A stretch of DNA of 33,969 nt from a virus. The stretch lies in IMG/VR virus record IMGVR_UViG_3300047181_000090, positions 1 to 33,969 of that record, one strand, 5' to 3'. The position numbers and the translations under genes were made by a program. The notes under the pieces were generated by a model. It saw nothing but the letters and a program-made list of their open reading frames with translations. It was not told the origin of the DNA and did no database searches. This document shows, piece by piece, positions 3 through 30,035 of this stretch; the stretch's first letter is position 1; each line of letters opens with the position of its first letter.

Positions 3-3000
3 TCAAGCGAACTTGGTTATGTCGGGTGCTCTATTTCCGTTCTGTAAATTTCTTATGATTGTTTCCACCGGATTTTGTGAGGCTGGATCTTGGACCGGCT
101 TTGTCTGTGTCATTCTAGCCTTAAACACACCAGAATTCCAAACCCCTGAAATGAGGGGTTCAAAGATCGGATTTCCATTACTCTTCTTTATCTGTCCAAA
201 TTGATCCAATTCATTGGTATTTATGAAGAGTTTATGCAGGCACCCACGCAGGCGCCCAATAGGAACTATGTCCTGAGATTGTATTGTACCAAACTCATTT
301 TCAAGAAATTCGTTAGCGTTCTGGCCATTCCGCCAAGAATCAAACAAAAATTTTGTAGAAAGTCCTGTAAATAGCGCCTTAGTATTTTCTATTTCGGTCT
401 GAAATTTCTGACGAATCAGATAATGTAATAGGTAAGCCTCGCTGTCGCGATCTGTTATGCCCTCACCATCCACATATCCGGCTATTACAGGCTCTGTAGA
501 CCTAACAACCGGAAGAGGAGTACCTTCGACAACCATCACGTCATTACGGTCATATACGGAGTCTCTGGGGATAAATACCCCATTCTTTATTATACCGTAT
601 TGAATCGATTCAGAGGAAACTTGCTTTCCACCAAATAGATTACCATTACCACCGGGAAAACTAGACCTGCCTTCCATTATGGGGAAATAAATATGCCCGT
701 CAAATAAGGATATGAATGACCCGTCCGAACTTTCTTTTATTTTAACCAGGTTTGGTGAATAGTATTCAGAACCTAAAAACTGGCGAACAAAATCAACATC
801 GTCCGTAGCGGAAGCGGATAGTTGTGCATATCTGGAATAATAATCCAAAGCGAGCAACGCTCTACATACCGTATAATTTCCTATCAACCCATTATAAATG
901 AATAACTGCACGAACGATATTGGATTATGCATTCTCCAAGTCAGGACATCCATTCCTTCAGGTAATGTGGTTCCATTAGCTGCAAATTTTCTATCAATTA
1001 AGTAAATGAAATCCCCAATATTTCTCAATAATAAATTGGACTTGAATTGATAGTTCGTTATATATTCGGGTTTTATATATTTCAAACCATTAATTGAAAG
1101 TGCTGATTTATAATTATCGTCTGATTCAAGGATATATGGAATTCCCGGAATTGCATTATATATCGCGTTCAGGTAATTTCTCTTCATGATTATAGAATCT
1201 GAATCAGTGCGACCGCGGAGGAAAGCAACGGCTGTCGCCACCTCGGAAATTTCGGTCATATCATTGGAACTAGCGTAAAGTTTAGATAATGCAGTGGTAA
1301 GTTCTTGATCCAATAGTTCAGGATCGGTTCCTATAACAGGTTTTTTTGGTGCTTCTTTTCTTAGATATTTTGTAGAATCGATTGGAACTACTACCTGGAA
1401 TGGATCCATTTGATTTAGGATTGAATCTCTAAATATAACAGAATCTTTATGACCAATACCTATAGGCAAAAACTCCCAGACGAACATATCAGGTCCGGTG
1501 GCAAGTTGTGATCCCCAGACTACATTAAATGGAGTGCCGTAGTCTCCTTGAGATGCCCCGGAAATGAAAGCTTCGGCTATATCCAATAACCTGAAATAAT
1601 CATCAGTACCTTCTTTTATCAGGTCTGTCTTATTGGATGCGTAAATATTTATACGTATTGATAGTCCGAAATTATGCCAGCTCAGGAATGTGCTGGGTTC
1701 GCCACCGGTTTGTTTAATATCTTGATCAGAAACAGACCTTGACGTTTCAATAATTTTAATTCTAGAATCGCCAAATTCAGATTTTAATATTGAAAGTAGG
1801 AACTGTGTTTTTTCATATATATCAATTCCCGGGTGCATATCTTTTATCTGACTTGATGTTACTGGAAATGGATTCCATCCTGGTATATAGTTTGGATCTG
1901 AAGGATTTACGTTATTGAACGCCCCATATTCTTTAAAAGTGGCCTCCGCTATTGCAGCATCTGAAGGTAGATATGGGATATTTGCTGCTGTTAATAGGGT
2001 AACAGGAGCATCTGGAGCACTTTGTTTTGGATATGGGATAATTAAATTGAGAACAATTCCACCTTCACCATATTTAGACGCGGTAGCATGTCTAAGACTT
2101 GTCGTTGTCCATGTTATCGTACGAGCGTCAATAATATGAGCATTCTCCCAAGTACCATCTATATATGGATTAGCACATCCATTAATCTGAACTCCTACAA
2201 TCGCACCGGGATCAAATTTTGGGTTGTTAAATTTGGTTGTTAGAACAACAGTAGCGGCGGATCCTGTCATGGTTATTACCACTGATTCTATAGGGGAATT
2301 TATCCCAACTATTTGACCAGTAACTGTTTGATTCGGGGGAAATTGTGATAATGGGTTAGTATTTACAAACTTAATTTCTACCCAGCGAATCCCAAGATTT
2401 TTTGGAATCTTTTTCTTCCGCATTTCCTTTCTATACTTTTTAGAATAGCTGAAGTTAACCGGAATCATTAACCAGGCCATATGTCGATAAAGACCATAAG
2501 TATCTACTGGAATTGTAAATTCGCCGGATTTATCAAATATTGAATTTCCACCGTCAAGCACAGATTCACCAGCATATGCTTCGAACAGCTTTATGTTAGC
2601 AATAACTCCACGAATTTTGCTCATCGCACTACTAAGATCATCATACAAATCATCAGTAGCATCTATCAAAGAAGAATAAGTCGCGGCAGCGCTATAATCA
2701 ATGCTTGACATTATCGCGATCTGCATACGGAAATTTGATATAATACCGAAGGTTTTCCGTATTGCGGATGAAATGTCGTATAATGTATTGTTGATGGTTA
2801 GGGTTGTATTAATTCTAACAATGTCTGAAAGTGAAGTAGTCGCTGTCATAGCAGATTGAGAAGTTGATACAGCACTGTGTAAATATCCATTCTGCTGACT
2901 ATTTGTTGACACGAAACTATCTATCAAGGTATTTGAATCTTCTAGCTGTTCCAATATTTCAGAAATTTCATTTCTAAAGAATTCACGATCTCCAATTAAC

Positions 3001-6802: not shown

Positions 6803-9076
6803 TCAAAGCATTTTTACCGAAGAATATAACCCATCATTAGTAACTGATGCGGTATGATCAAATAATTCAGAAAATTCCTTACTGCGATGGGTAGCAACAT
6901 ATATTGATCCGATTTCCAGGGTTTTCCCCTTCATCAGGTCAAACATATCACCAATACCATCATCATCCTGGGAACCATCAACAACTTCATCCAGGAATAA
7001 TAAATTTATCTTGAAATCTATTACTTCGGTTACGAAGTCTCTAAAGGCCATGGCGACAGCCACGTTTAATTTCCTACGCTGACCCTGCGAAAGTCCCTTA
7101 TAGGAATAAGCACCGCCCAGGAATCCCTCGAATTCACATTCCATAGATTCATCAAACTTGATCTTATATGGAAGGTCAAAGAACATTAGGTTTTTATCTA
7201 TTTTGTCATTGAAATCTGGAACATATATGGACAAAAGCATTTTCTTAATGCCATTCTCACCATACATATCATCCAGGAATTTACATATTTCAATCTCGTC
7301 CGAGAATGTGTCCTTTTCAGATTCGAGTTTTCTCTTTTCTAATACTAAGGAATCGAGTTGTTTTTTAGCAGCGTTTAATGTGTTTTCAGCATCGGAACGT
7401 TGCATCTTTTCGATCTGCTGAGTTCTGAACACAATTCCATTTTCAATTTGCTTTTTAGTGGCTGAATTTGCAGATATTTGCGTATTAATATCGTTTAACC
7501 TAGCAGTTAATTCATTTATCTTTTTCTGAATTTCGGATGCGGCTACGCGTATTACTTCGATCTGTTGTAATCGAGAATTGAAATATACGTCCGGGGTATT
7601 TGCATTACCACCATTGGAAACCGCATAATCACTGATATCTTTCATTTGTGCGGTATAAGATGTCAGATAATTTTGCCAGGTTGCATTTGCTGCCAATACT
7701 TCACGATTCTTCGAAGTAATGGTTTGATCCAACCTGTCGGAAATGTCTTTTTGGGCTTTAATCTTTTCATATTCAGCAGTAACTTCTTGAATAGAAGCGC
7801 TTAACGCCTGTATAGTGGTTAACTTGGCATCATATATTGCTTGTGTGGTCTCGTTTTGAGACAACATCTTTTTATATTCTTCTCTAAGATGCACCTTGAC
7901 TTTTTCGGCGTCTTGTTCAGTTATCAATCGATCACATGCAGGACATACAATATTAGATTTAACTGACTTTCCTTGGTTTCCTATTTCAGCTAACTTATTT
8001 TTTATATACTGCAGATTACCGGAAACTGTATTTAGTTCGGACTGTAATGATTTTGCTGTTTTAGTATCTTCTGATATCTTATTGTAAAGAATAGATACTT
8101 GATCCGGAGAAATTACCGGGGTATCGGTACGCGTCTTTTGTAATTCGGATAGAGATGCGACCTGTTGATTATATACCGATTCCAAGCGAGCTATCTCAGT
8201 TCGGCTGCTCTGCATGTTATTCAGAAACATCAGCGCGGTCGATAATTTATTACTTTCACTTGATAGGCTAGTTAGATCTGGAAGTTGTGCTTGTAATGTG
8301 GACCCTTCAGTTTTTATTGAAGAAACTTGTACATTCAAAGCATCGGTTGCGTTGGTCAATGACTCTAACTGTACCCGTGATTGTACATTTTGATCCAATA
8401 GCTCCTGTATATTATTCTTAAGTTCGTTCTCGGCTACTGTTATTATGCGCTTCTGATCATCTATAGATCTATCAACACCGGATAATCCAAGAGTAACATT
8501 TGTAAATGACGCGTGTGCCTTAGTCATCTCAGATGCGTTTTTAGATCTGAATTTTTCTGATTTGGTAGATGTTATAGAATCCACGAGCTTTCGCTTCTTC
8601 TCAGCACCCAAGTCCATAAAGGATGTGGTTAATATGCTGTTCTGAGCCACTGCTAATCTAAAGACATCATCACTGAAGCCCAGTACATTATCTTCAAACC
8701 ACTGCTGACTAAACCCAGCCTTCTTATCCAGGGGATCAGGTGACTCATTCTTATAAATATTAAAGCTTTGAGAACCGGAAGATGTTAGTTCGCGAACCAC
8801 TCGATAGTTGTTCTTACCATCAGAATCTTCACGATATAGATTCACCGCACCCACAGCTTTCTTCTTATTAGCTGAATTATGCAATTCCTCTAAAGGAACC
8901 CCTCGATAGGATTTACCAAACAATACAAATTCAAGCACATCCATTATAGTGGATTTACCTGAACCGACAGGTCCTACCACACGCACTAAACCATCTGGAA
9001 ATGTAATCCGATTGCGGTTAGCACCATATTGGCCAAAATTGGACCATTCCATATCTATAAGATGTAAATCATGCAT
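6803..9076 (-). CDS. SbcC/Rad50-type recombination ATPase, T4 gp46-like
   Basis: A 757-residue SMC-type ATPase of the Rad50/SbcC/gp46 group. The Walker A is GPVGSGKS at residues 35-42. Long coiled coils flank a zinc-hook CPAC near residue 378. The ABC signature is LSQGQRRKLNVAVAMA near residue 660, and the Walker B is LLFLDEV near 695. In T4, gp46 pairs with the gp47 (Mre11-type) nuclease to resect double-strand ends for recombination-dependent replication; no gp47 homologue is in this window. The ATG overlaps the stop of the flap nuclease gene (TAATG), so the two are co-translated. The length is typical for phage members, which are shorter than bacterial SbcC. Confidence 0.9.
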   Translation of the reverse strand: MHDLHLIDMEWSNFGQYGANRNRITFPDGLVRVVGPVGSGKSTIMDVLEFVLFGKSYRGVPLEELHNSANKKKAVGAVNLYREDSDGKNNYRVVRELTSSGSQSFNIYKNESPDPLDKKAGFSQQWFEDNVLGFSDDVFRLAVAQNSILTTSFMDLGAEKKRKLVDSITSTKSEKFRSKNASEMTKAHASFTNVTLGLSGVDRSIDDQKRIITVAENELKNNIQELLDQNVQSRVQLESLTNATDALNVQVSSIKTEGSTLQAQLPDLTSLSSESNKLSTALMFLNNMQSSRTEIARLESVYNQQVASLSELQKTRTDTPVISPDQVSILYNKISEDTKTAKSLQSELNTVSGNLQYIKNKLAEIGNQGKSVKSNIVCPACDRLITEQDAEKVKVHLREEYKKMLSQNETTQAIYDAKLTTIQALSASIQEVTAEYEKIKAQKDISDRLDQTITSKNREVLAANATWQNYLTSYTAQMKDISDYAVSNGGNANTPDVYFNSRLQQIEVIRVAASEIQKKINELTARLNDINTQISANSATKKQIENGIVFRTQQIEKMQRSDAENTLNAAKKQLDSLVLEKRKLESEKDTFSDEIEICKFLDDMYGENGIKKMLLSIYVPDFNDKIDKNLMFFDLPYKIKFDESMECEFEGFLGGAYSYKGLSQGQRRKLNVAVAMAFRDFVTEVIDFKINLLFLDEVVDGSQDDDGIGDMFDLMKGKTLEIGSIYVATHRSKEFSELFDHTASVTNDGLYSSVKML

Positions 9077-13278: not shown

Positions 13279-13467
13279 ATGCCTGGATGTCAACTATTCT
13301 CACCTAACCGATTTAATATCATTTCAGATATTTTTGCAAAAGCATGTGATGCTGATGCAAAAGGACTTGGCGATGGAATCGATTCAGATAAAAGTAAATT
13401 TTATGATTTCGTAACCGAAACCGTTCAAATGAAATTGGAAGAAATTACCCTACTATCATTTGAGTGA
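13279..13467 (+). pseudogene. Cassette 5: gene cut by the IS607-like element
   Basis: The visible product is 62 residues (MPGCQLFSPNRFNIISDIFA...), unknown, starting after AAGGAA. The open frame could be started earlier only inside attC 4, which is unlikely. Its last residues run into the terminal hairpin of the IS607-like element, and no attC follows. The native C-terminus and the cassette's own attC have therefore probably been separated or lost. The exact junction is uncertain; a GG dinucleotide at 13437-13438 fits the IS607 target preference. Confidence 0.55.
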
Positions 13468-13476
13468 TAGTATGGG
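13448..13476. repeat. Strong hairpin at the tnpB-side end of the IS607-like element
   Basis: CCCTACTATCA pairs with TGATAGTATGGG (one bulged base) around a six-base loop. At this position, on the minus strand, it could be the 3' scaffold of the TnpB guide RNA or the terminal structure of the element. Confidence 0.6.
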
Positions 13477-13795
13477 TGTTTCATCAAGAACATTTGTTTG
13501 TACTCGGAACCGTAAGTACCGAGAGTGAATCGAGCCAGTGAATTTGTCGCACCGACAGTATCGGCATTGCGTGAGGAACCACACTTCACACAAACAAATT
13601 CTTCCTGAGTTGCCCGATTCGCCTTCTCACTGTGATTGCAGTCTGGACATGTGATAGAATTACCATAAGCAGGTACTCTACGAAGGGACACACCGTGTTC
13701 CTCCGTAAGCATTTGAATCCTGCTGTTTATCCTACCAATAGCCCAGCCAGTGAGAACAGACCGCATATTTTTACTCAGGCGACCTCTGAGTTTAC

Positions 13796-14009
13796 AGTTT
13801 TTCAAGAGAAAGATGCGATATCTTTAGTATCGCGTATGAATCGCATTCATTATAAACATATGTTAGTAGTAGCTAATAAGCTGTACCTCCGGGACGGAGG
13901 AATCTTAAGCGAGTGGACTTCTGAACCGCTAACAGAACCTTGTGGCTCTGGGAATGTTCTCAAGGTTGATGCTCGAAGCTGAGCGCTCTTTAGGCGATCG
14001 GTAGTTCAC
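13796..14009 (+). mobile_element. 214-bp non-autonomous IS200/IS605-type element inside tnpB
   Basis: The element lies just 3' of TTTAC (13791-13795) and ends in TTCAC (14005-14009), the arrangement expected for Y1-transposase elements, which insert 3' of a short target and leave no duplication. The left end has hairpin GCGATA/TATCGC (13815-13833). The right end has GAGCGC/GCGATC with one mismatch (13981-13999). Both have the same loop, TCTTTAG. Removal restores the host tnpB frame exactly. It encodes no transposase. The right end matches the TnpB element at 28777-30110. Confidence 0.88.
13880..14009 (+). ncRNA. Omega-RNA-like 3' region of the 214-bp element
   Basis: The region has hairpins CCTCCG/CGGAGG (13886-13900) and an AACCTTG/CAAGGTT stem (about 13936-13967). 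It then has GCTCGAAGC followed by the terminal hairpin and GGTAGTTCAC. The same order (GAACC..., AGCTTGAAGC, hairpin with CTTTAG, GGTAGTTCAC) is found at the 3' end of the IS1341-type tnpB at 28.8 kb, where an omega RNA is expected. Transcription is not shown. Confidence 0.5.
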
Positions 14010-14807
14010 TCTTGTTCTTTATCCTTCTGTTATCTTCGAGTACCAACAACTGAAGTGTTTCCATAGGAATTTGCTTGATCGAATGATCTATGTATTCAAG
14101 GATTTCCTCTCTGCATGCATTCCATGCATTTGAATTCCGTTTCTTCCGTTTCAACTTGTTCAACAGATCCATCATTCCTGATCCGTAGTGATTGCCTTCA
14201 TCATCGTTGATGACATGGACTGCACCCGGATCAATGCCTATGATGTTTCCTTCGGTTGATTTTCCTTGTTCCATCTCGAATGAAAACTGGATATACTTGT
14301 CAGTCAATATGACAGAACTACATAACTTTCCTTTCGATTTCCACTTGTTGAACATCTTGTTCTTCTTCAACGGAATCGCCACTTCTACTGCCCTTTTACG
14401 GGAATCAAAACAACGGATCTCAACCAATAGATCGTATAATTCAAGGTCTGGATGTTGTTGAATTTCCGCATTAGTACAACTCAACATTATCCTAGACGCA
14501 TCATGTTTCGGAGTAGAATATGGTTTGTTCAGCGCATCAGCACTACGCTTGGTGCCAAGCACCAATGCATATGATTCAGCGAATGCGTTCTTTTTGGCAC
14601 GAGCCGTCAACCACGATTCACATTTATCCAATTTGTCAGCGAGAAGCAACTGCGGTTTCTTCATTCCGTTCAATATGTCGGATTCGTGATGGGCTATCGC
14701 CCATTCCACAACCCGATGCATTTCAGCAATGAACTCACGGAGAACTATCACCTTATTCTCGGTTATCCATTTGCTAAAATAGCACTTGCTTGAACGGGTA
14801 TATTTCA

Positions 14808-15341
14808 TTAGTAAAACGCTCTCATTCTGGAAATTTCTTTTCTGACATCATATTCATGTCCTGTTAGATGGTATTTATCTACTATCATTATTACTAATAC
14901 TTCATCTTCAATAGCAGGATCAAATTCCATTTCTACCATATTAGGAATCACATGTTGGGTGAGTGGTTTCACACCAACTATCTGCATTGATGCCATGTCA
15001 GATAATGTTTTGATTGGGTTCTGCTTAACAAGCGGAGTTGATGGAACATATGGTTCGGGTTCGTACACTATTTCACGAATGATTTTAGATATCTTCATAA
15101 TAGTGAAAATAAATGGTTGTTGTTTACCTTGATCTTGTATTCTAACGGGTTCTTCTATCCGAAAATAACCAGATCCAAAATTGAATTCGATTGTATATTG
15201 ATAGGCACCACGACACCGTTCCTTTACCAGAACTTCGTAACAATCGGAACCATCGGTGAATTCGCCTATACCATCTACCAATACTATTGGTGATGTTTTG
15301 GTTATTAATTTTATATTATTGTTATCATGTTCATTTGACAT
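14808..15341 (-). CDS. Passenger gene of unknown function between tnpA and tnpB
   Basis: A 177-residue protein that I do not recognise. The ATG at 15341 is favoured over 15344 by its spacing from a strong AAAGGAG lying within the end of tnpA. The protein overlaps tnpA at its start and tnpB at its end (TAATG), so all three are co-translated. The sequence is mixed alpha/beta and contains VYEPEPYVPSTPLVKQNP, a Pro-rich linker, and an acidic VEMEFDPAIEDEVLVIM strand. No catalytic motif is evident. Typical IS607 elements carry only tnpA and tnpB, so this is either an accessory factor of the element or captured cargo. Confidence 0.7.
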   Translation of the reverse strand: MSNEHDNNNIKLITKTSPIVLVDGIGEFTDGSDCYEVLVKERCRGAYQYTIEFNFGSGYFRIEEPVRIQDQGKQQPFIFTIMKISKIIREIVYEPEPYVPSTPLVKQNPIKTLSDMASMQIVGVKPLTQHVIPNMVEMEFDPAIEDEVLVIMIVDKYHLTGHEYDVRKEISRMRAFY

Positions 15342-15975
15342 CATTAACTCCTTTCAATTTATCATTGGATTTTTTGTTCTGGTGACTTCTCTTTCCATAT
15401 ATCTTGTCACTGAACGAAGCCATCAAGGTCAACATGTCTTCAACTAATTCGTTCTCGAATGACTTACTCAGTACAATATCAACATATTCTATCACAACAT
15501 TATGTGATGCGAAGAATTTCTCAAGGATATTGTAGTTGAATCGAATCAATCTATCCTTATGCTCGATTACCACCTTGGAAATCTTCTTATCAGAAGCCAA
15601 GTCCATCAATTTCATTAACTTGGTTCGTTTATCATTCATACCAGAACCGACCTCATCAAACACGTATTCAGTCTGGTATTTCTTGGATATACAGTATTCC
15701 AGCAATCGTGATTTCTGCCTGTCCAGATCACCTTTCTGCTTCTGGTCATGTGAAGACACACGACAATATACAGCTATAGGAAGTTCGATCACTTCTGATT
15801 CTTCCAACTTGACATTCATTAGTTTGGCAACATCAGATTCCTTGTATTTACGGTGTCCACGGGAATCCACACGGAATGCTTCTATGATTCCACGTTCAGT
15901 CCATGAACGTAATGTCTTTGCTGATACATTCAATCGCTTGGATGCTTCCTTTATACCTATGAATTTCTCAGTCAT
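15331..15975 (-). CDS. tnpA: IS607-family serine recombinase (transposase)
   Basis: A 214-residue protein in the reverse order typical of IS607: an N-terminal MerR-like helix-turn-helix (FIGIKEASKRLNVSAKTLRS, then GHRKYKESDVAKLM), followed by a small serine-recombinase catalytic domain. The nucleophile motif is AVYCRVSS (near residues 68-75) and a conserved Arg lies in IEHKDRLIRF. It catalyses transposition through a circular intermediate into loosely defined GG-type targets. The start at 15975 was chosen because ATG ACT GAG overlaps the stop of the upstream small ORF; the upstream ATG at 16008 lies inside that ORF. Confidence 0.9.
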   Translation of the reverse strand: MTEKFIGIKEASKRLNVSAKTLRSWTERGIIEAFRVDSRGHRKYKESDVAKLMNVKLEESEVIELPIAVYCRVSSHDQKQKGDLDRQKSRLLEYCISKKYQTEYVFDEVGSGMNDKRTKLMKLMDLASDKKISKVVIEHKDRLIRFNYNILEKFFASHNVVIEYVDIVLSKSFENELVEDMLTLMASFSDKIYGKRSHQNKKSNDKLKGVNDVK

Positions 15976-16132
15976 CTGTTTCCACGCCAAGTTTCGTGTA
16001 CCAATCATCTAGGTACTTCTGAAATTCCTCTATGGACGGAACTACATCCAATTCAACCACTTGTGGAATGATGCGACCATCTTCCAATTCAAACTCCGTA
16101 CTTGTTACTCTAATCACTTTCATACGTTTCAT
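15968..16132 (-). CDS. Small ORF leading the IS607-like operon
   Basis: A 54-residue acidic protein (MKRMKVIRVTSTEFELEDGR... ending GVETDD), overlapping the tnpA start. AGGAG and a second AGGAA precede its ATG. The middle (ELEDGRIIPQVVELDVVPSI) looks like a short beta hairpin followed by an amphipathic helix. No family is recognised. As the first gene of a tightly overlapping four-gene operon it may regulate transposase synthesis. Confidence 0.65.
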   Translation of the reverse strand: MKRMKVIRVTSTEFELEDGRIIPQVVELDVVPSIEEFQKYLDDWYTKLGVETDD

Positions 16133-18321: not shown

Positions 18322-19347
18322 TCAAAATTCTTGCGAATCACATGCCTTTTGTAAATATTCAGATTCAACATTACTTGGAATATGGAATATTGGATTTGGT
18401 GTAGTGTTGATTTTTATCTCACCTTCCTTCCCAAATACCGAAATCGGTAGTTCCTGAGAAATTAATGAACTATTAAACGATACTTGCGTCGTGCCGCCAG
18501 GTGTATTTATGGTAATAGGCCTAGATAACAGAATATCATATATTGAACAGTTAATGGTCATTGATAAATTAGGATTAGGTAACTTATTATATTTTATGGG
18601 TATATCATTATAATCAAAATTTTCTACAAGTTTTACTAACAAATCACCGGCAGGTCCGGAAAATCGGCCTGAATTACCTCTACCTTTAATTTTAACCACA
18701 CTGCCAGGAGCTGTCGCTACTGGTATATTAACCTTGACCCGCTGATCTTCTAAATTTATTCCACTACCATCACAATGGGAACATTTTACTTTAGTCACTA
18801 CTCTAGAACCATGGCAGGTGCGGCAGCGGATAATATCATAATCCCCAGTATTTGGATTAGGAACTTTCAAGAATCCTAGACGGTTACATTCTGGACATGG
18901 CATTAGTGATTTTGCTCCGGTACCTGCACATAATCTGCAATGAACCATACGGGAAACTTTAATGGATTTTTCAACACCTTTCCAGAATTCTTCTAATTTA
19001 TAATCAACCTCGAGAGTTATATCATCGCCGCGAGGCGCTTCTGGTTTCATTTGATCGCGATCAAAGCTCTGGGCACCACCAAATTTCGGTTTGTATCCTT
19101 CACCATTAAAACATTCACCATAAAACTGAAAGTTATTGGCAAATGTGTCCCTATTATCATATTCCTTGCGCTTTACCGGATCCAGTAATGTCTGGTAGGC
19201 ATCGGTATATTTCTTAAATTCTTCCTCCAACGCAGCATTTCCGGAAGTTTTGTCAGGATGATACTTGATCGCTATTTTTTTATATGCTCTCCGGATATCA
19301 TCTTCAGTAGCATTGACTTCTATTCCTAACAATGAATACAGGTTCAC
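18322..19347 (-). CDS. dnaJ: DnaJ-type (Hsp40) co-chaperone
   Basis: A 341-residue class A J-protein. The J domain (residues 1-65) has the HPD triad at 30-32. There is almost no Gly/Phe-rich linker. Four zinc-binding repeats (CRLCAGTG, CPECNRLG, CRTCHGSR, CSHCDGSG) lie around residues 137-195, followed by two beta-barrel substrate-binding domains. J-proteins stimulate the ATPase of Hsp70; no DnaK is in this window, so it probably recruits the host DnaK to replication or virion assembly. The start is GTG, overlapping the upstream stop (GTGA), with GAGG in front. It is shorter than E. coli DnaJ (376 residues), mainly through the linker. Confidence 0.93.
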   Translation of the reverse strand: MNLYSLLGIEVNATEDDIRRAYKKIAIKYHPDKTSGNAALEEEFKKYTDAYQTLLDPVKRKEYDNRDTFANNFQFYGECFNGEGYKPKFGGAQSFDRDQMKPEAPRGDDITLEVDYKLEEFWKGVEKSIKVSRMVHCRLCAGTGAKSLMPCPECNRLGFLKVPNPNTGDYDIIRCRTCHGSRVVTKVKCSHCDGSGINLEDQRVKVNIPVATAPGSVVKIKGRGNSGRFSGPAGDLLVKLVENFDYNDIPIKYNKLPNPNLSMTINCSIYDILLSRPITINTPGGTTQVSFNSSLISQELPISVFGKEGEIKINTTPNPIFHIPSNVESEYLQKACDSQEF

Positions 19348-19547
19348 ATGATCCTCATTTTGCTTATATATTCCATGAAAGGAAAATATTCAGTTTCTTC
19401 GGCCATTAGAGGATCTTCCATAATCCTTTTAACTCCACACCTATAGTTGACTGGACCGGACCTTACCATGGCGCCAGCGATCTCGTAAACGCCTTCCTTG
19501 CCTATGATAGTTACCTTGCGACCTATGCTAAATTCATTTACTTTCAT
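19344..19547 (-). CDS. Small beta-rich hypothetical protein
   Basis: A 67-residue protein starting MKVNEFSIGRKVTIIGKEG. Its first half resembles a small KOW- or SH3-like barrel (GRKVTIIGKEGVYEIAGAM). The upstream extension of the open frame to 19631 is a hydrophobic shadow that overlaps the divergent gene. It overlaps dnaJ by four bases and is likely co-transcribed. Function unknown. Confidence 0.55.
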   Translation of the reverse strand: MKVNEFSIGRKVTIIGKEGVYEIAGAMVRSGPVNYRCGVKRIMEDPLMAEETEYFPFMEYISKMRIM

Positions 19548-19563
19548 ATAAATAACATAAATT

Positions 19564-19911
19564 ATGATTATGCAGCCACAATCAAATTTAAGCATATACG
19601 GCAGTAAGGTCCCTATAAAAAATATGGACATTGGTCAACAAAAAGCTTTTGGTGATGAACCATATCCACACCTGGGAAGTATTGTTAGTTGGTATAACAA
19701 ACAGAATAGAACCTCAATTAAGGTTTTCTTCCAATACTTTGAAAGTTCCGGAACATCGATTCAATTCGTTGGTAGAGCATGGGAAGATATGGAACCACTT
19801 GAGACTAGGGAAGAGTTCGAAGAAAGTGTAAAGAAATTCCTAGTAAAATTCCTAGAACTGGACCCAAGTGATATAGGTCCAATCAGAAATCTGGAATCCG
19901 ACGGTTTCTAA
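19564..19911 (+). CDS. Hypothetical protein, divergent from the dnaJ operon
   Basis: A 115-residue soluble protein of unknown function. The start could be ATG 19564 or ATG 19570; neither has a clear ribosome-binding site. The C-terminal half is acidic and helical (RAWEDMEPLETREEFEESVK). It is one of the few rightward phage genes in this half of the window and converges with the next leftward gene (4-base overlap of the ends). Confidence 0.6.
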   Translation: MIMQPQSNLSIYGSKVPIKNMDIGQQKAFGDEPYPHLGSIVSWYNKQNRTSIKVFFQYFESSGTSIQFVGRAWEDMEPLETREEFEESVKKFLVKFLELDPSDIGPIRNLESDGF

Positions 19912-22160: not shown

Positions 22161-23180
22161 TTAAAGTGTCTGTTGCTTGAAGTATTCGTCGATTATTGGA
22201 CAGTTGATTCCACTAAAATCGGAAATCTCACAATCTATCAATCTCTTACCTAAATATACAGTACAAAATACATCCAACCCATATATATCTATCAGTTCAG
22301 AATAATTCTGATTTTCGTATATAGATCGCATATCATCGAATGTAACTTCAAATGGTTCAAATATTGATTCCCTTCTATGGGCCTTTTGTAACAAATCATC
22401 GAATTTATGTAGTGTATGCAATCCTAAATCTTCAATTCCAAATCTTGAATGAATTTCTGATCTTGGGGTTGGGTTAATACAACTTCCAATTATTATTTTA
22501 CTGGTTTTGGTAGAAATAATAATAGGTAAGACACAATCCACAAATTGTTTAGCAAATGTGTTCGGACAGAAACTGAAATCACAAAGATATGCGTAAGTAA
22601 AAGAAGATCCACGTAAATTATTGATAGACTGTGTATATGCAAATGGATATACAACCGAACCATTTTCAAATTCTAGTTTACTTTTTGTAAATGATTTAAT
22701 TTTAACGCCTGTAGATGTTAATAGATTTTTATATATAACACCAATGATCTTTAATTTATCTTCACTGGTTGTTTTCTTTGTAGAAAATATAGCGAGTCTA
22801 CTGCCTGGATTTGTTATTGCGTGGTGAATCATATCTAACATGACACACAAATCCATTCCGGATTGTCTGATATTTTTAATAATCACAGCGCGATTATTTG
22901 TGATTTTATCAAATAATCGATTCTGCCATTCATATGGAATAAATGGGGTTAACCCGGTTCTAGTAAAAATATTAGGTTTACAAGTTTTTATAAAATCAAT
23001 TACAGAATCAAATTTTGTAATTCCAACAGCACTTTGATTAAAATTGTGAAATGGTAGAGTTTGTTCCGCGTAATCGGAAATCAACTTTCTAATTAATTCA
23101 GAACGATTTAAATTACTTTTTTCAGATACCAGATCCAGTAATTTATCAGTCGCTTCATCTATTGAAATATTAATGCGCGT
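22161..23180 (-). CDS. RHH domain fused to a degenerate terminase-like ATPase
   Basis: The frame extends upstream of any ATG/GTG/TTG consensus start. Residues 1-40 (RINISIDEATDKLLDL..., NRSELIRKLISDYAE) form a classic ribbon-helix-helix DNA-binding domain. An ACG at 23180 lies seven bases after AGGAG and is the only sensible start in frame; the first ordinary start is a TTG at 23084 inside the domain. From residue 80 on, the protein follows T4 gp17: PYEWQNRLFDK, a Walker A equivalent NIRQSGMD (gp17 has SRQLGKT), FENGSVVYPFAYT, NNLRGSSF and a Walker B equivalent YLCDF (gp17 has YIED). The Walker A Lys and Walker B Glu are missing, and there is no C-terminal nuclease domain. It is about 339 residues long and probably a DNA-binding regulator or structural paralogue. 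Confidence 0.65.
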   Translation of the reverse strand, partial: TRINISIDEATDKLLDLVSEKSNLNRSELIRKLISDYAEQTLPFHNFNQSAVGITKFDSVIDFIKTCKPNIFTRTGLTPFIPYEWQNRLFDKITNNRAVIIKNIRQSGMDLCVMLDMIHHAITNPGSRLAIFSTKKTTSEDKLKIIGVIYKNLLTSTGVKIKSFTKSKLEFENGSVVYPFAYTQSINNLRGSSFTYAYLCDFSFCPNTFAKQFVDCVLPIIISTKTSKIIIGSCINPTPRSEIHSRFGIEDLGLHTLHKFDDLLQKAHRRESIFEPFEVTFDDMRSIYENQNYSELIDIYGLDVFCTVYLGKRLIDCEISDFSGINCPIIDEYFKQQTL

Positions 23181-23231
23181 ATAGTTGCTCCTTTAAAAGC
23201 AACATATATCATTCGCATTGTGTATACATAA

Positions 23232-24849: not shown

Positions 24850-26268
24850 TTATTTCACACGAGTCGGAATATTTTCTGAAATTAACACTTCAGAAAAGTC
24901 TTGCTTTACTATTTCAATCATATCTTCGGTAACAATGACTGAATCATGAACTGTGGCAAAAAATATACCCTTATCTCGGACCCTGGTACATACTTTGGTA
25001 TACATCAAAGTAGATTCGATCTTCTGCATCTGATGTGCTAGTGATCTAAAATTCTTAATCTTGAACTTTGTAAGTAACTTGTCAATTATTGGAAATTCAC
25101 TTTCCCAAACCGTTTTCATCTTCTTCGATAACCTGGAGGGGCTCCCAAATACATAAGTAACCCATTTCCTCTTCATTTCATCTCGACTAACCGTATCTCG
25201 GTTCAGATATCGCCACATTTCAACAAAATGCTCATATATCCCTTCCCTAATCCATTTTTCATATTTAACAATCTCAAGTTCTAACTTATTTATAGTAGCC
25301 GACAGGCTGCTTTCTCCTAATCTTGAAATTCTAAACTCAAATTTAGATCCATCAACATGTGGTTCAGTAATATAATTTGGTTTTGATGCGGCTACGTACT
25401 TATATCGAGCATCTATAATATCCCCAACTATATCACCCATATGCATCGCCTGGTATTCAGTATCCCCCCATTTCGCCTGTTCCAATTTTAATAGTTCAAG
25501 ATAATCCCTGAACACACAACTGAGCATTGCCGGCTGTGATGAAACAATATCTACTCCTACCAGCTTCTTACCTTCATAATAAAGATGATTCTCTCGAACT
25601 TCCTTACACACACTGGTGAAATTTGTATGAATTCTCCCATATTGATCTTTCTTTACATATATCACAGCTTTTTCTATTTCATCAATCTTTCTCTTCTCAC
25701 CCTGAATCTTTTCTTTGGTAAACTTCTTCGGATTAACCTTCTGCATCCGCTCCAGGGTTTCATAGGCTGCCGCCTTGTCCACAGTAACCTTTGGTAAGGT
25801 TTCGATAAATAGACTTACCATTTCATCCGATCTTTCTTCTCCAAAATCCCTATCAAGTCGAGCCATTTTCTTCAATAATGAAGCCTTCTTTACCCAATAA
25901 ACCTCGGTATTGTACATATCAATGTTATTACCAATACCATAATATTTACACTTTCCCACATCAATTGGATTACTGACTACGTAATGGTTATCAGTTATCA
26001 AAATGCCGTTTTCTATTAAAAAATCAAGATATTCTCTGTAATGCCTTCCAACTTCATAAGCAAGAATCACTGAATATACCGGAACCAATCTCAATCCTTC
26101 GTATCTATTCTTATTCATCTTCAATATTTTAGAGACTATGAAGTATAACACATCCTTATCATACTTGAAAGTCCACTTGTGATTTCCAAATATAAAAGCT
26201 GCCTGGAGGGCGCCAGCCAGGTTTTTCGGGATAGATATGCACCTAGGTGCTTGTGAACGTTTTGTCAC
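24850..26268 (-). CDS. Family A DNA polymerase-like palm protein
   Basis: A 472-residue protein. GRIHTNFTSVCKEVREN, then KLVGVDIVSSQPAMLSCVF (Asp near residue 239) resemble the region leading into motif A of family A polymerases (R...G..LVxxDxSxxQ). KWVTYVFGSPSRL near 372 could be the end of a fingers helix. FATVHDSVIVTED near 439 resembles motif C (VHDE). No 3'-5' exonuclease domain is visible, and the first 170 residues are unlike known polymerases. It may be a specialised replication or repair polymerase, or an inactive relative; the motif C Glu is replaced by Ser. The start is GTG, after GGAAGTGA. Confidence 0.5.
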   Translation of the reverse strand: MTKRSQAPRCISIPKNLAGALQAAFIFGNHKWTFKYDKDVLYFIVSKILKMNKNRYEGLRLVPVYSVILAYEVGRHYREYLDFLIENGILITDNHYVVSNPIDVGKCKYYGIGNNIDMYNTEVYWVKKASLLKKMARLDRDFGEERSDEMVSLFIETLPKVTVDKAAAYETLERMQKVNPKKFTKEKIQGEKRKIDEIEKAVIYVKKDQYGRIHTNFTSVCKEVRENHLYYEGKKLVGVDIVSSQPAMLSCVFRDYLELLKLEQAKWGDTEYQAMHMGDIVGDIIDARYKYVAASKPNYITEPHVDGSKFEFRISRLGESSLSATINKLELEIVKYEKWIREGIYEHFVEMWRYLNRDTVSRDEMKRKWVTYVFGSPSRLSKKMKTVWESEFPIIDKLLTKFKIKNFRSLAHQMQKIESTLMYTKVCTRVRDKGIFFATVHDSVIVTEDMIEIVKQDFSEVLISENIPTRVK

Positions 26269-28780: not shown

Positions 28781-28930
28781 ACTACCGCTGATCTAAAGTC
28801 TCATCGGCTTCAAGCTCCTCGCGGGCACTCTTCCTGCACTGGACCCATGGGCGGTTCCCATAACTTGCAGGCTTAACTTCGTGGGTGTTCCTAACTTGAC
28901 CCACTAGCTGGCGTAACGCCAGGAAAGCAA
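28777..28930 (-). ncRNA. Predicted omega RNA at the 3' end of tnpB
   Basis: The end of tnpB and the element's right end contain GGAACCGCC...GGAGCTTGAAGC, a terminal imperfect hairpin (CCGATGA/TCAGCGG) and TAGTTCAC. In this family the guide RNA overlaps the tnpB 3' end and its guide is the flanking DNA. The guide here would be the end of the SWIM-finger gene. The 5' limit is approximate. Confidence 0.55.
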
Positions 28931-30035
28931 ATTGCTTAATATTGACCGCGGCGTTTACGTCGCGGTCGTGTTCTGTATCACATTCCTGACAAGTCCAGGA
29001 TCTATGCTTCAACGTTAAACCGGAAAATATCCAACCACATTTGGAGCAGGTTTTGGAAGAGGGAACAAACCGACCAATGGTCAGTATGTTCTTCCCGTAC
29101 CAGTCTGCTTTATATGTGAGCATATTAAAGAACTTGCCAAGGGCAAGATCTTTAATATGTTTGGCTAAGTTATGGTTTTGAATCATTCCCTTAACATTAA
29201 GATCTTCGATGCATATAGTTTGGTTATCACGTATTAGCTGTGAAGATGTTTGATGTAGGAAATCATTCCGTTGGTTCGCCACTCGTTCGTGCAGTAGCTG
29301 AAGTTCGAGTTTCGCCTTTTCCGCATTTTTGGATAAAGGATCACCTTTCTTATGTTTCTTTAACTTTCGGGAGAAAGCACGGCTGAGCTTCCTCAACCGC
29401 TTGATGTTCGTTATCAAGATACGAGGATTCGGAATCGGTTTTCCATCCGAAGCGACCAGATATGTTTTAATTCCGACATCGATGCCGACAGCATTGTTTT
29501 CGTCCGGTTCTGGTTTGACGGGAAGTTCCTTCCCGTCATCCACCAGGATCGAGATGAAGTATTTACCCGAAGGTTTCTTCTTTATCGTGGATAAACAAAT
29601 CTTACCTACGAATTCTCGATGGAAAACAACGTTGATTCCTTCCTTGAACTTGGGAATAAAAACTTTATGGTTTTCAAAATCTACAGTTGTGTTTTGTGGA
29701 ATCTCGAAACTTGACGTATCCTTTTTGCTCTTGTATCTGGGAAAATCGCACTTTCCGGTGAAGAAGCGCTTAAACGCGATATCCAAATTCCGAGCTGTAG
29801 ATTGCAAACTCTGAGAGTTTACTTCCTTTAACCAAATGAAATCCGCATCTTCTTTCAAATATGGAATCTCTTCGGACATCTCGAATCGGGACAGATTGTA
29901 TTTGGATGCGGTGTAAAGATCGGTTTTTCTGGACAACATATGGTTATACAACCAACGAACACAGCCAAAGTGCTTCGCTAGAAGCACTTTTTGTTCATCG
30001 GTCGGATATATCCGATATTCGTACGACTTATACAT
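28782..30035 (-). CDS. tnpB: TnpB RNA-guided nuclease, apparently intact
   Basis: A 417-residue protein. It has an N-terminal YEYRIYPTDEQKVLL module, RuvC-I Asp186 (AVGIDVGIKTYLV), RuvC-II Glu277 (TICIEDLNVKGM), zinc-finger Cys 330, 333, 349 and 352 (CSKC, CQEC) and RuvC-III Asp359 (DRDVNAAVNI). All three catalytic residues are present, so it should be active. TnpB cuts DNA next to a short target-adjacent motif under omega-RNA guidance and helps keep the element at its donor site. The Arg/Glu-rich tail (REELEADETLDQR) overlaps the omega-RNA scaffold. It is transcribed against the flanking rightward phage genes. Confidence 0.93.
   Translation of the reverse strand: MYKSYEYRIYPTDEQKVLLAKHFGCVRWLYNHMLSRKTDLYTASKYNLSRFEMSEEIPYLKEDADFIWLKEVNSQSLQSTARNLDIAFKRFFTGKCDFPRYKSKKDTSSFEIPQNTTVDFENHKVFIPKFKEGINVVFHREFVGKICLSTIKKKPSGKYFISILVDDGKELPVKPEPDENNAVGIDVGIKTYLVASDGKPIPNPRILITNIKRLRKLSRAFSRKLKKHKKGDPLSKNAEKAKLELQLLHERVANQRNDFLHQTSSQLIRDNQTICIEDLNVKGMIQNHNLAKHIKDLALGKFFNMLTYKADWYGKNILTIGRFVPSSKTCSKCGWIFSGLTLKHRSWTCQECDTEHDRDVNAAVNIKQFAFLALRQLVGQVRNTHEVKPASYGNRPWVQCRKSAREELEADETLDQR

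Follow-up and report, generated by a model that had tools for sequence, protein, structure and literature searches.

The window analysed here, a 33,969-bp IMG/VR record, contains a gene in which a ribbon-helix-helix (RHH) domain stands in front of the ATPase domain of a large terminase (TerL). Sequence comparison confirms the TerL ATPase domain, which is of the kind known from T4 gp17 and cyanophages; its catalytic motifs are degenerate and the nuclease domain is absent. The best explanation, to which we assign a probability of about 0.5, is an accessory, RHH-headed and non-hydrolysing 'pseudo-terminase' that would act by binding. The main weakness of the finding is the missing standard start codon. 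The features of the gene, and of related proteins in other phages, are listed in table 1.

Table 1. Features of the window protein and its gene, and nuclease-less TerL paralogues of other huge phages.
Record	Feature	Positions	Strand	Basis or remarks
Window	RHH + degenerate TerL ATPase fold, whole frame read from ACG	22161..23180	(-)	339 aa + stop
Window	RHH domain, residues 2-40, RINISIDEATDKLLDLVSEKSNLNRSELIRKLISDYAEQ	23061..23177	(-)	Pfam RHH_1 4e-7; AF2 helices
Window	TerL/gp17-like ATPase fold, residues 54-290 (~290)	22311..23021	(-)	sequence tests + Foldseek
Window	degenerate Walker A KNIRQSGMDL, residues 102-111; canonical K..RQ.GK[ST]T	22848..22877	(-)	alignment
Window	kept LRG motif + degenerate Walker B, INNLRGSSFTYAYLCDFSFCP, residues 186-206; canonical VRG.SF...FLDEFAF.P	22563..22625	(-)	alignment
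Window	changed coupling motif III region, KIIIGSCINPTPR, residues 228-240; canonical IIISTPNGM	22461..22499	(-)	alignment
Window	C-terminal tail, residues 290-339, low predicted confidence	22164..22313	(-)	AF2
Window	ACG codon where a start codon is expected	23178..23180	(-)	sequence
Window	first standard in-frame start, TTG	23082..23084	(-)	307-aa product without most of RHH
Window	hairpin GTTGCT-TTTAAAGG-AGCAAC around Shine-Dalgarno AAAGGAG (23188-23194)	23184..23203	(-)	z-score -2.3 to -2.4
LR756501 (W03)	paralogue	699857-701026		390 aa, KSRQMGIT
L153	paralogue	7539-8720		short fragment holding only the paralogue
G063	paralogue	235121-235912		460 aa, RQSGFT
G041	paralogue	2187-2759		445 aa, RQSGYT
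G066	paralogue	73934-74677		258 aa, RQSGST
G069	paralogue	346182-346880		265 aa, RQSGST, Walker B LDDF
LR756504	paralogue	635700-636317		P-loop gone, Walker B MDMG, runs off record end

The frame is free of stops over 343 codons (22164-23192, minus strand). Its base composition would predict about 28 stops, against 0 seen; the other five frames hold 9-43. At the N-terminus there is a strand-helix-helix pattern that matches Pfam RHH_1 with 30.2 bits, against a curated cut-off of 20.5 (E=4e-7). AF2 predicts the two helices (residues 7-22 and 26-41) both with and without an alignment; they are present in the monomer model, in which the beta ribbon is not formed.

Residues 54 to about 290 resemble TerL in four sequence comparisons: gp17 (3.4e-7, phmmer against PDB sequences), PHROG TerL (6.7e-11), cyanophage TerL (5e-20, tblastn) and a canonical-TerL profile built here (8.6e-31). 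The four top Foldseek matches of the predicted model are all gp17, the best at 2.8e-14 (3cpe). The good AF2 model took TerL sequences as its alignment, so this structural agreement adds little to the sequence evidence; AF2 without an alignment recovers the RHH helices alone and not the rest of the fold. The frame ends where the TerL ATPase domain ends, and the RNase H nuclease domain is absent from the protein and from the rest of the window when searched with a nuclease profile (best E 0.041, in an antisense frame). A split terminase with its nuclease elsewhere in the window was considered and rejected on the basis of this search.

The catalytic motifs were compared by aligning the window protein with 37 canonical relatives. 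The structural residues Q86, K102, R105, Q106, G108, R190 and G191 are kept. In Walker A, K109 is replaced by Met and S/T110 by Asp (RQSGMD versus RQ.GK[ST]); in Walker B, D200 is replaced by Cys and E201 by Asp (LCDF versus LDEF); the coupling motif STPNG has become SCINP. No catalytic Walker A Lys is left, the classical site being occupied by Met and the deviant site, five residues before the second Gly, by Asn. There is a Lys one residue upstream of the deviant site, and the canonical relatives have the same Lys. Judging from these residues, the window protein has probably lost its ATPase activity. Four altered catalytic positions, an altered coupling motif and a missing nuclease cannot be the product of one sequencing error.

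The first-pass annotation of this DNA had described an RHH domain in front of a gp17-type ATPase in one frame, a change of Walker A from GKT to GMD and the loss of the nuclease domain, and all three are borne out, respectively by the Pfam (4e-7), profile (8.6e-31) and Foldseek (2.8e-14) matches, by the alignment (RQSGMD) and by the profile search of protein and window. It had also reported a Walker B change from ED to CD. The CD is correct, but ED is the order in the crystallised mutant gp17 chains 2o0h and 3cpe; since chain 3ezk shows DE, the real change is from DE to CD. Structure prediction against gp17, which it had proposed, does give a matching fold, but from a model whose alignment consisted of TerL sequences. 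Homologues with intact motifs, which it would have taken as a sign of sequence error, are present, but they are not copies of the fusion gene: the closest homologues listed are all ordinary terminases of other phages, of about 550 aa and with intact motifs.

Among the other genes of the window are those of a T4-type late sigma factor, SbcC-like, exonuclease, RuvC-like and dnaJ-like proteins, and a small family-A-polymerase-like protein (24850-26268; motifs DIxSSQP, FG and VHDS), whose INPHARED matches are all to uncultured phages of about 0.6-0.7 Mb. The window is most likely a piece of a jumbo or huge phage. Through the polymerase-like neighbour a sister contig of 54 kb, G036, was found; single-protein searches with dnaJ or SbcC and an SbcC alignment gave no close sister phages. 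The blocks shared by G036 and the window comprise the structural protein, sigma factor, SbcC, exonuclease, RuvC, polymerase-like and dnaJ genes. The stretch that separates the polymerase-like from the dnaJ gene in G036, flanked on both sides by core genes, carries a different gene set, in which no TerL-like protein was found. The fusion gene, missing from this syntenic interval, thus lies in a variable, accessory region, and this location favours an accessory role over that of a core packaging part. There is no canonical TerL within the 34-kb window, so that co-occurrence of the two proteins is demonstrable only in relatives.

Several other features of these contigs were recorded. The polymerase-like protein (24850-26268) has many relatives in IMG/VR jumbo phages and is a useful lineage marker. 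An IS607-type element at 13425-16008 of the window consists of a serine recombinase followed by a TnpB-like gene in two pieces, which are in different frames and about 180 bp apart. A second TnpB-like gene (28782-30035) is apparently intact and has no neighbouring transposase. G036 carries two adjacent copies of a gp55-like late sigma factor (18620-19575), with 49% and 29% identity to that of the window.

Whole-record searches revealed an ATPase-only TerL-like protein beside the canonical TerL in six other huge-phage genomes. These proteins share with the window protein the three features by which paralogues were counted, namely the TerL ATPase fold, the absence of the nuclease and the loss of the classical Walker A Lys. 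In one TerL group, with frames mostly of 550-650 aa, four of 12 jumbo phages carry such a paralogue. The L153 protein, on a separate contig, is an orthologue of the LR756501 paralogue and is 83% identical to it. Joining the record ends of LR756504 did not lengthen the paralogue frame. Walker B retains its Asp in most paralogues and DE in some. Because in the LR756501 paralogue the deviant Walker A site is occupied by a Lys and Walker B is intact, that protein may still use ATP. Some paralogues may accordingly be able to bind or hydrolyse ATP, whereas the proteins of the window and of LR756504 look catalytically dead, as far as can be read from their motifs.

The paralogues that match Pfam do so with TerL ATPase models and not with the nuclease model, which is matched by the control TerL of S-H38. 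Two longer canonical TerLs that were scanned also missed the Pfam nuclease model, and the stronger evidence of absence is therefore the nuclease profile built here. Among the paralogues this profile gives a weak match (~1e-10) only for LR756501/L153, attributable to linker sequence common to both profiles; its controls score 1e-76 or better, having themselves been in the profile set. PHROG 5989, an ATPase-length family named 'terminase large subunit', matches both the window protein and the paralogues; proteins with the ATPase domain only may therefore be present there already under the plain name of terminase.

With dN/dS values of ~0.14 (LR756501/L153) and ~0.24 (G066/G069), these paralogues are maintained under purifying selection. 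In the phylogenetic tree, two sets of paralogues, LR756501/L153 and G063/G041, each fall among the TerLs of their own phage group. Long, unplaced branches are formed by G066/G069 and by the window protein, whose branch measures 3.43 changes per column (median 0.18). These placements suggest several separate origins of the paralogues. No RHH domain was found in the paralogues whose N-terminus is known (all except LR756504), and no RHH gene adjoins the other paralogues. Lacking the RHH domain and having apparently arisen separately, they need not share the function of the window protein. The canonical TerL of LR756501, a 735-kb phage, is itself split by an insertion, directly after RQVGK, into two parts about 13 kb apart (610555-611046 and 624012-624254; L138 and L142); both halves carry intein-like sequence, possibly a split intein.

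The RHH fusion has been found in one copy so far, on one metagenomic contig. Searches of phage and plasmid collections (tblastn), a direct search of IMG/VR and a search of IMG/VR and GTDB with a TerL alignment revealed, among the loci listed for the latter two, only canonical TerLs and no second fusion. A DNA pattern search for the degenerate Walker B gave no relative of the fusion among the loci listed, and the intact TerL frames listed from searches centred on the window protein (P0001) all have Walker A GK[ST]. One candidate for a second member, a 343-aa frame without Walker A (L100), was rejected as a normal TerL with intein-like insertions. There are two of these (L100:5186-7858), one of them in Walker A, and the contig is filed under a Chloroherpeton MAG.

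The ACG codon is exactly where the RHH protein should begin. There is no in-frame ATG, GTG or TTG before the RHH domain, and gene calls elsewhere, where examined, begin at ATG, GTG or TTG. A strong Shine-Dalgarno sequence, AAAGGAG, lies 7 nt upstream of the ACG, but inside a hairpin whose stability is reached by 2-6 of 200 shuffled sequences. Inspection by eye of the upstream short frame revealed no convincing slippery site for frameshift entry into the RHH domain. Expression of the fusion is thus uncertain, a start at the TTG skipping most of the RHH domain. Either the ACG is weakly translated, or a single base separates the gene from a functional ATG, whether by an error, by variation between strains or by recent silencing. 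Unlike the catalytic losses, the ACG could be a single sequencing error; a base error or a recent pseudogene is possible. The hairpin at 23184-23203, which sequesters the Shine-Dalgarno sequence, could be a translational switch.

In the light of these results, the start at 23180 given by the first-pass annotation fits the domain boundary, but its codon is an ACG, which had passed without mention. The proposal of a terminase paralogue turned into something else agrees with the TerL fold, the losses and the comparable paralogues beside canonical TerLs. The DNA-binding role put forward with it gains from the RHH match and is weakened by the uncertain translation of that domain. Its further idea, that the protein modulates packaging or recognises the packaging site, is a possibility. 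Looking for the same fusion elsewhere, as had been advised, gave no second example in the collections and listed loci covered but did lead to degenerate paralogues accompanying a canonical TerL in six genomes. The remark that no such system had been described holds for the literature searched, mostly outside subscription journals, in which neither an RHH-terminase fusion nor degenerate paralogues of TerL came to light. A recurring degenerate second TerL would be a class of phage pseudo-enzyme that is apparently undescribed there.

In the pseudo-terminase reading, the ATPase domain of a T4/cyanophage-type TerL would have been duplicated, the duplicate would have ceased to hydrolyse ATP and lost the RNase H nuclease, and an RHH domain would have been joined to its N-terminus. 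The TerL fold would dock on a usual binder of TerL, that is, the packaging ring or portal of the phage itself or of a rival, or a host TerL sensor, and an RHH dimer would bind DNA, either a pac-like site or an operator for autoregulation. Dimerisation, DNA binding, the binding partner and translation from the ACG are all presumed in this scheme. Its support includes the fold and homology to TerL and a frame that has remained open, with its structural residues kept, despite a very long branch; the recurrence of nuclease-less paralogues beside canonical TerLs, the purifying selection on two pairs of them and the accessory location also count in its favour. Against it stand the single copy of the fusion, from one metagenomic contig, and the other paralogues, which have no RHH and in part may still use ATP. 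RHH proteins are typically DNA-binding autorepressors, and dosage control and DNA targeting therefore both fit. TerL works as a ring of several subunits whose active sites are completed in trans. Pentamers of the isolated D6E ATPase domain have been observed, and inactive mutants recover part of the activity when mixed (PMC5727402), which makes joining a TerL ring plausible. One known trigger of Avs defence is the large terminase (PMC12931631), so that a decoy is plausible too. Sequence alone does not allow a choice between these partners.

A silenced or decaying gene, which we hold to be rather unlikely, would be an RHH-headed TerL paralogue becoming a pseudogene after a change from ATG to ACG, or a dead remnant captured once. 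The ACG start and the sequestered Shine-Dalgarno sequence, which count against the pseudo-terminase, fit a silenced or nearly silent gene, as do the very long branch, the absence from G036, the broken TnpB gene in the same window and the lack of a close relative; none is near enough for dN/dS to be calculated on the fusion gene. Decay is made less likely by the 0 stops where about 28 are expected, by the intact fold, RHH pattern and structural motifs, and by the purifying selection on comparable paralogues elsewhere. It is improbable that the protein is specifically a decoy against NLR-like sensors, a dead TerL occupying Avs1-3, which recognise the TerL fold, without activating them while the RHH domain controls dosage. 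The triggering of Avs by the large terminase (PMC12931631), the presence of a solved Avs3-terminase complex (8dgc) among the Foldseek matches and the accessory interval agree with such a decoy, and mimicry could presumably do without catalysis, but a TerL-like fold might activate Avs instead of blocking it, and the role of the RHH domain is left unexplained. Quite improbable is a weapon against competing phages or satellites, in which a dead subunit would enter foreign TerL rings and poison packaging: ring motors with trans-completed sites (PMC5727402) and the accessory location are compatible with it, but the phage's own TerL would also be threatened unless the effect were specific. Some small terminase subunits (TerS) bind DNA via their own N-terminal domain. 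A TerS-like packaging-initiation adaptor, suggested by the first-pass annotation, whose RHH would bind the packaging site and whose TerL fold would recruit the active motor, has both elements in a single chain. An adaptor of this kind would be expected to accompany the core genes, yet G036 has no such gene at the matching place, and the other paralogues are without RHH; we regard it as very improbable.

A wider interpretation of the pseudo-terminase can be offered tentatively, and we consider it somewhat doubtful: huge phages might repeatedly convert a duplicated packaging ATPase into a nuclease-less, binding pseudo-terminase, some non-hydrolysing and one lineage fused to an RHH domain, with roles in deceiving host immunity, countering competitors or regulating packaging. 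Tailed phages are taken to share TerL as a universal hallmark, and clades of jumbo phages have been defined with it (PMC7824862). A recurring degenerate second TerL would mislead phylogenies and phage counts that rely on TerL, and would be a candidate, open to direct testing, for evading immunity that senses TerL or for packaging control. The RHH fusion would give such a pseudo-terminase a DNA-targeting head.

The TerLs of T4 (gp17) and cyanophages (Terminase_6N + Terminase_6C, PHROG 2 and 5989) have the ASCE ATPase fold in common with the window protein, as well as the Q motif, the K..RQ.G strand-loop and the RG motif, with 27-35% identity over the ATPase domain. The window protein differs from them in the Walker A Lys and Ser/Thr, the Walker B Asp and Glu, and motif III; it is without the RNase H nuclease and has an RHH domain in front. 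The nuclease-less paralogues of huge phages likewise have the ATPase fold only and have lost the classical Walker A Lys, but no RHH is seen in them and most keep the Walker B Asp; those of G041 and G063 have a different C-terminal extension. The N-terminus is like that of CopG/Arc-type RHH regulators, here fused to a terminase fold and not alone or beside a toxin. TerS, to which the window protein has no sequence match, would likewise join DNA recognition with TerL contact if the adaptor model were right; the window protein has an RHH and a TerL-type domain itself.
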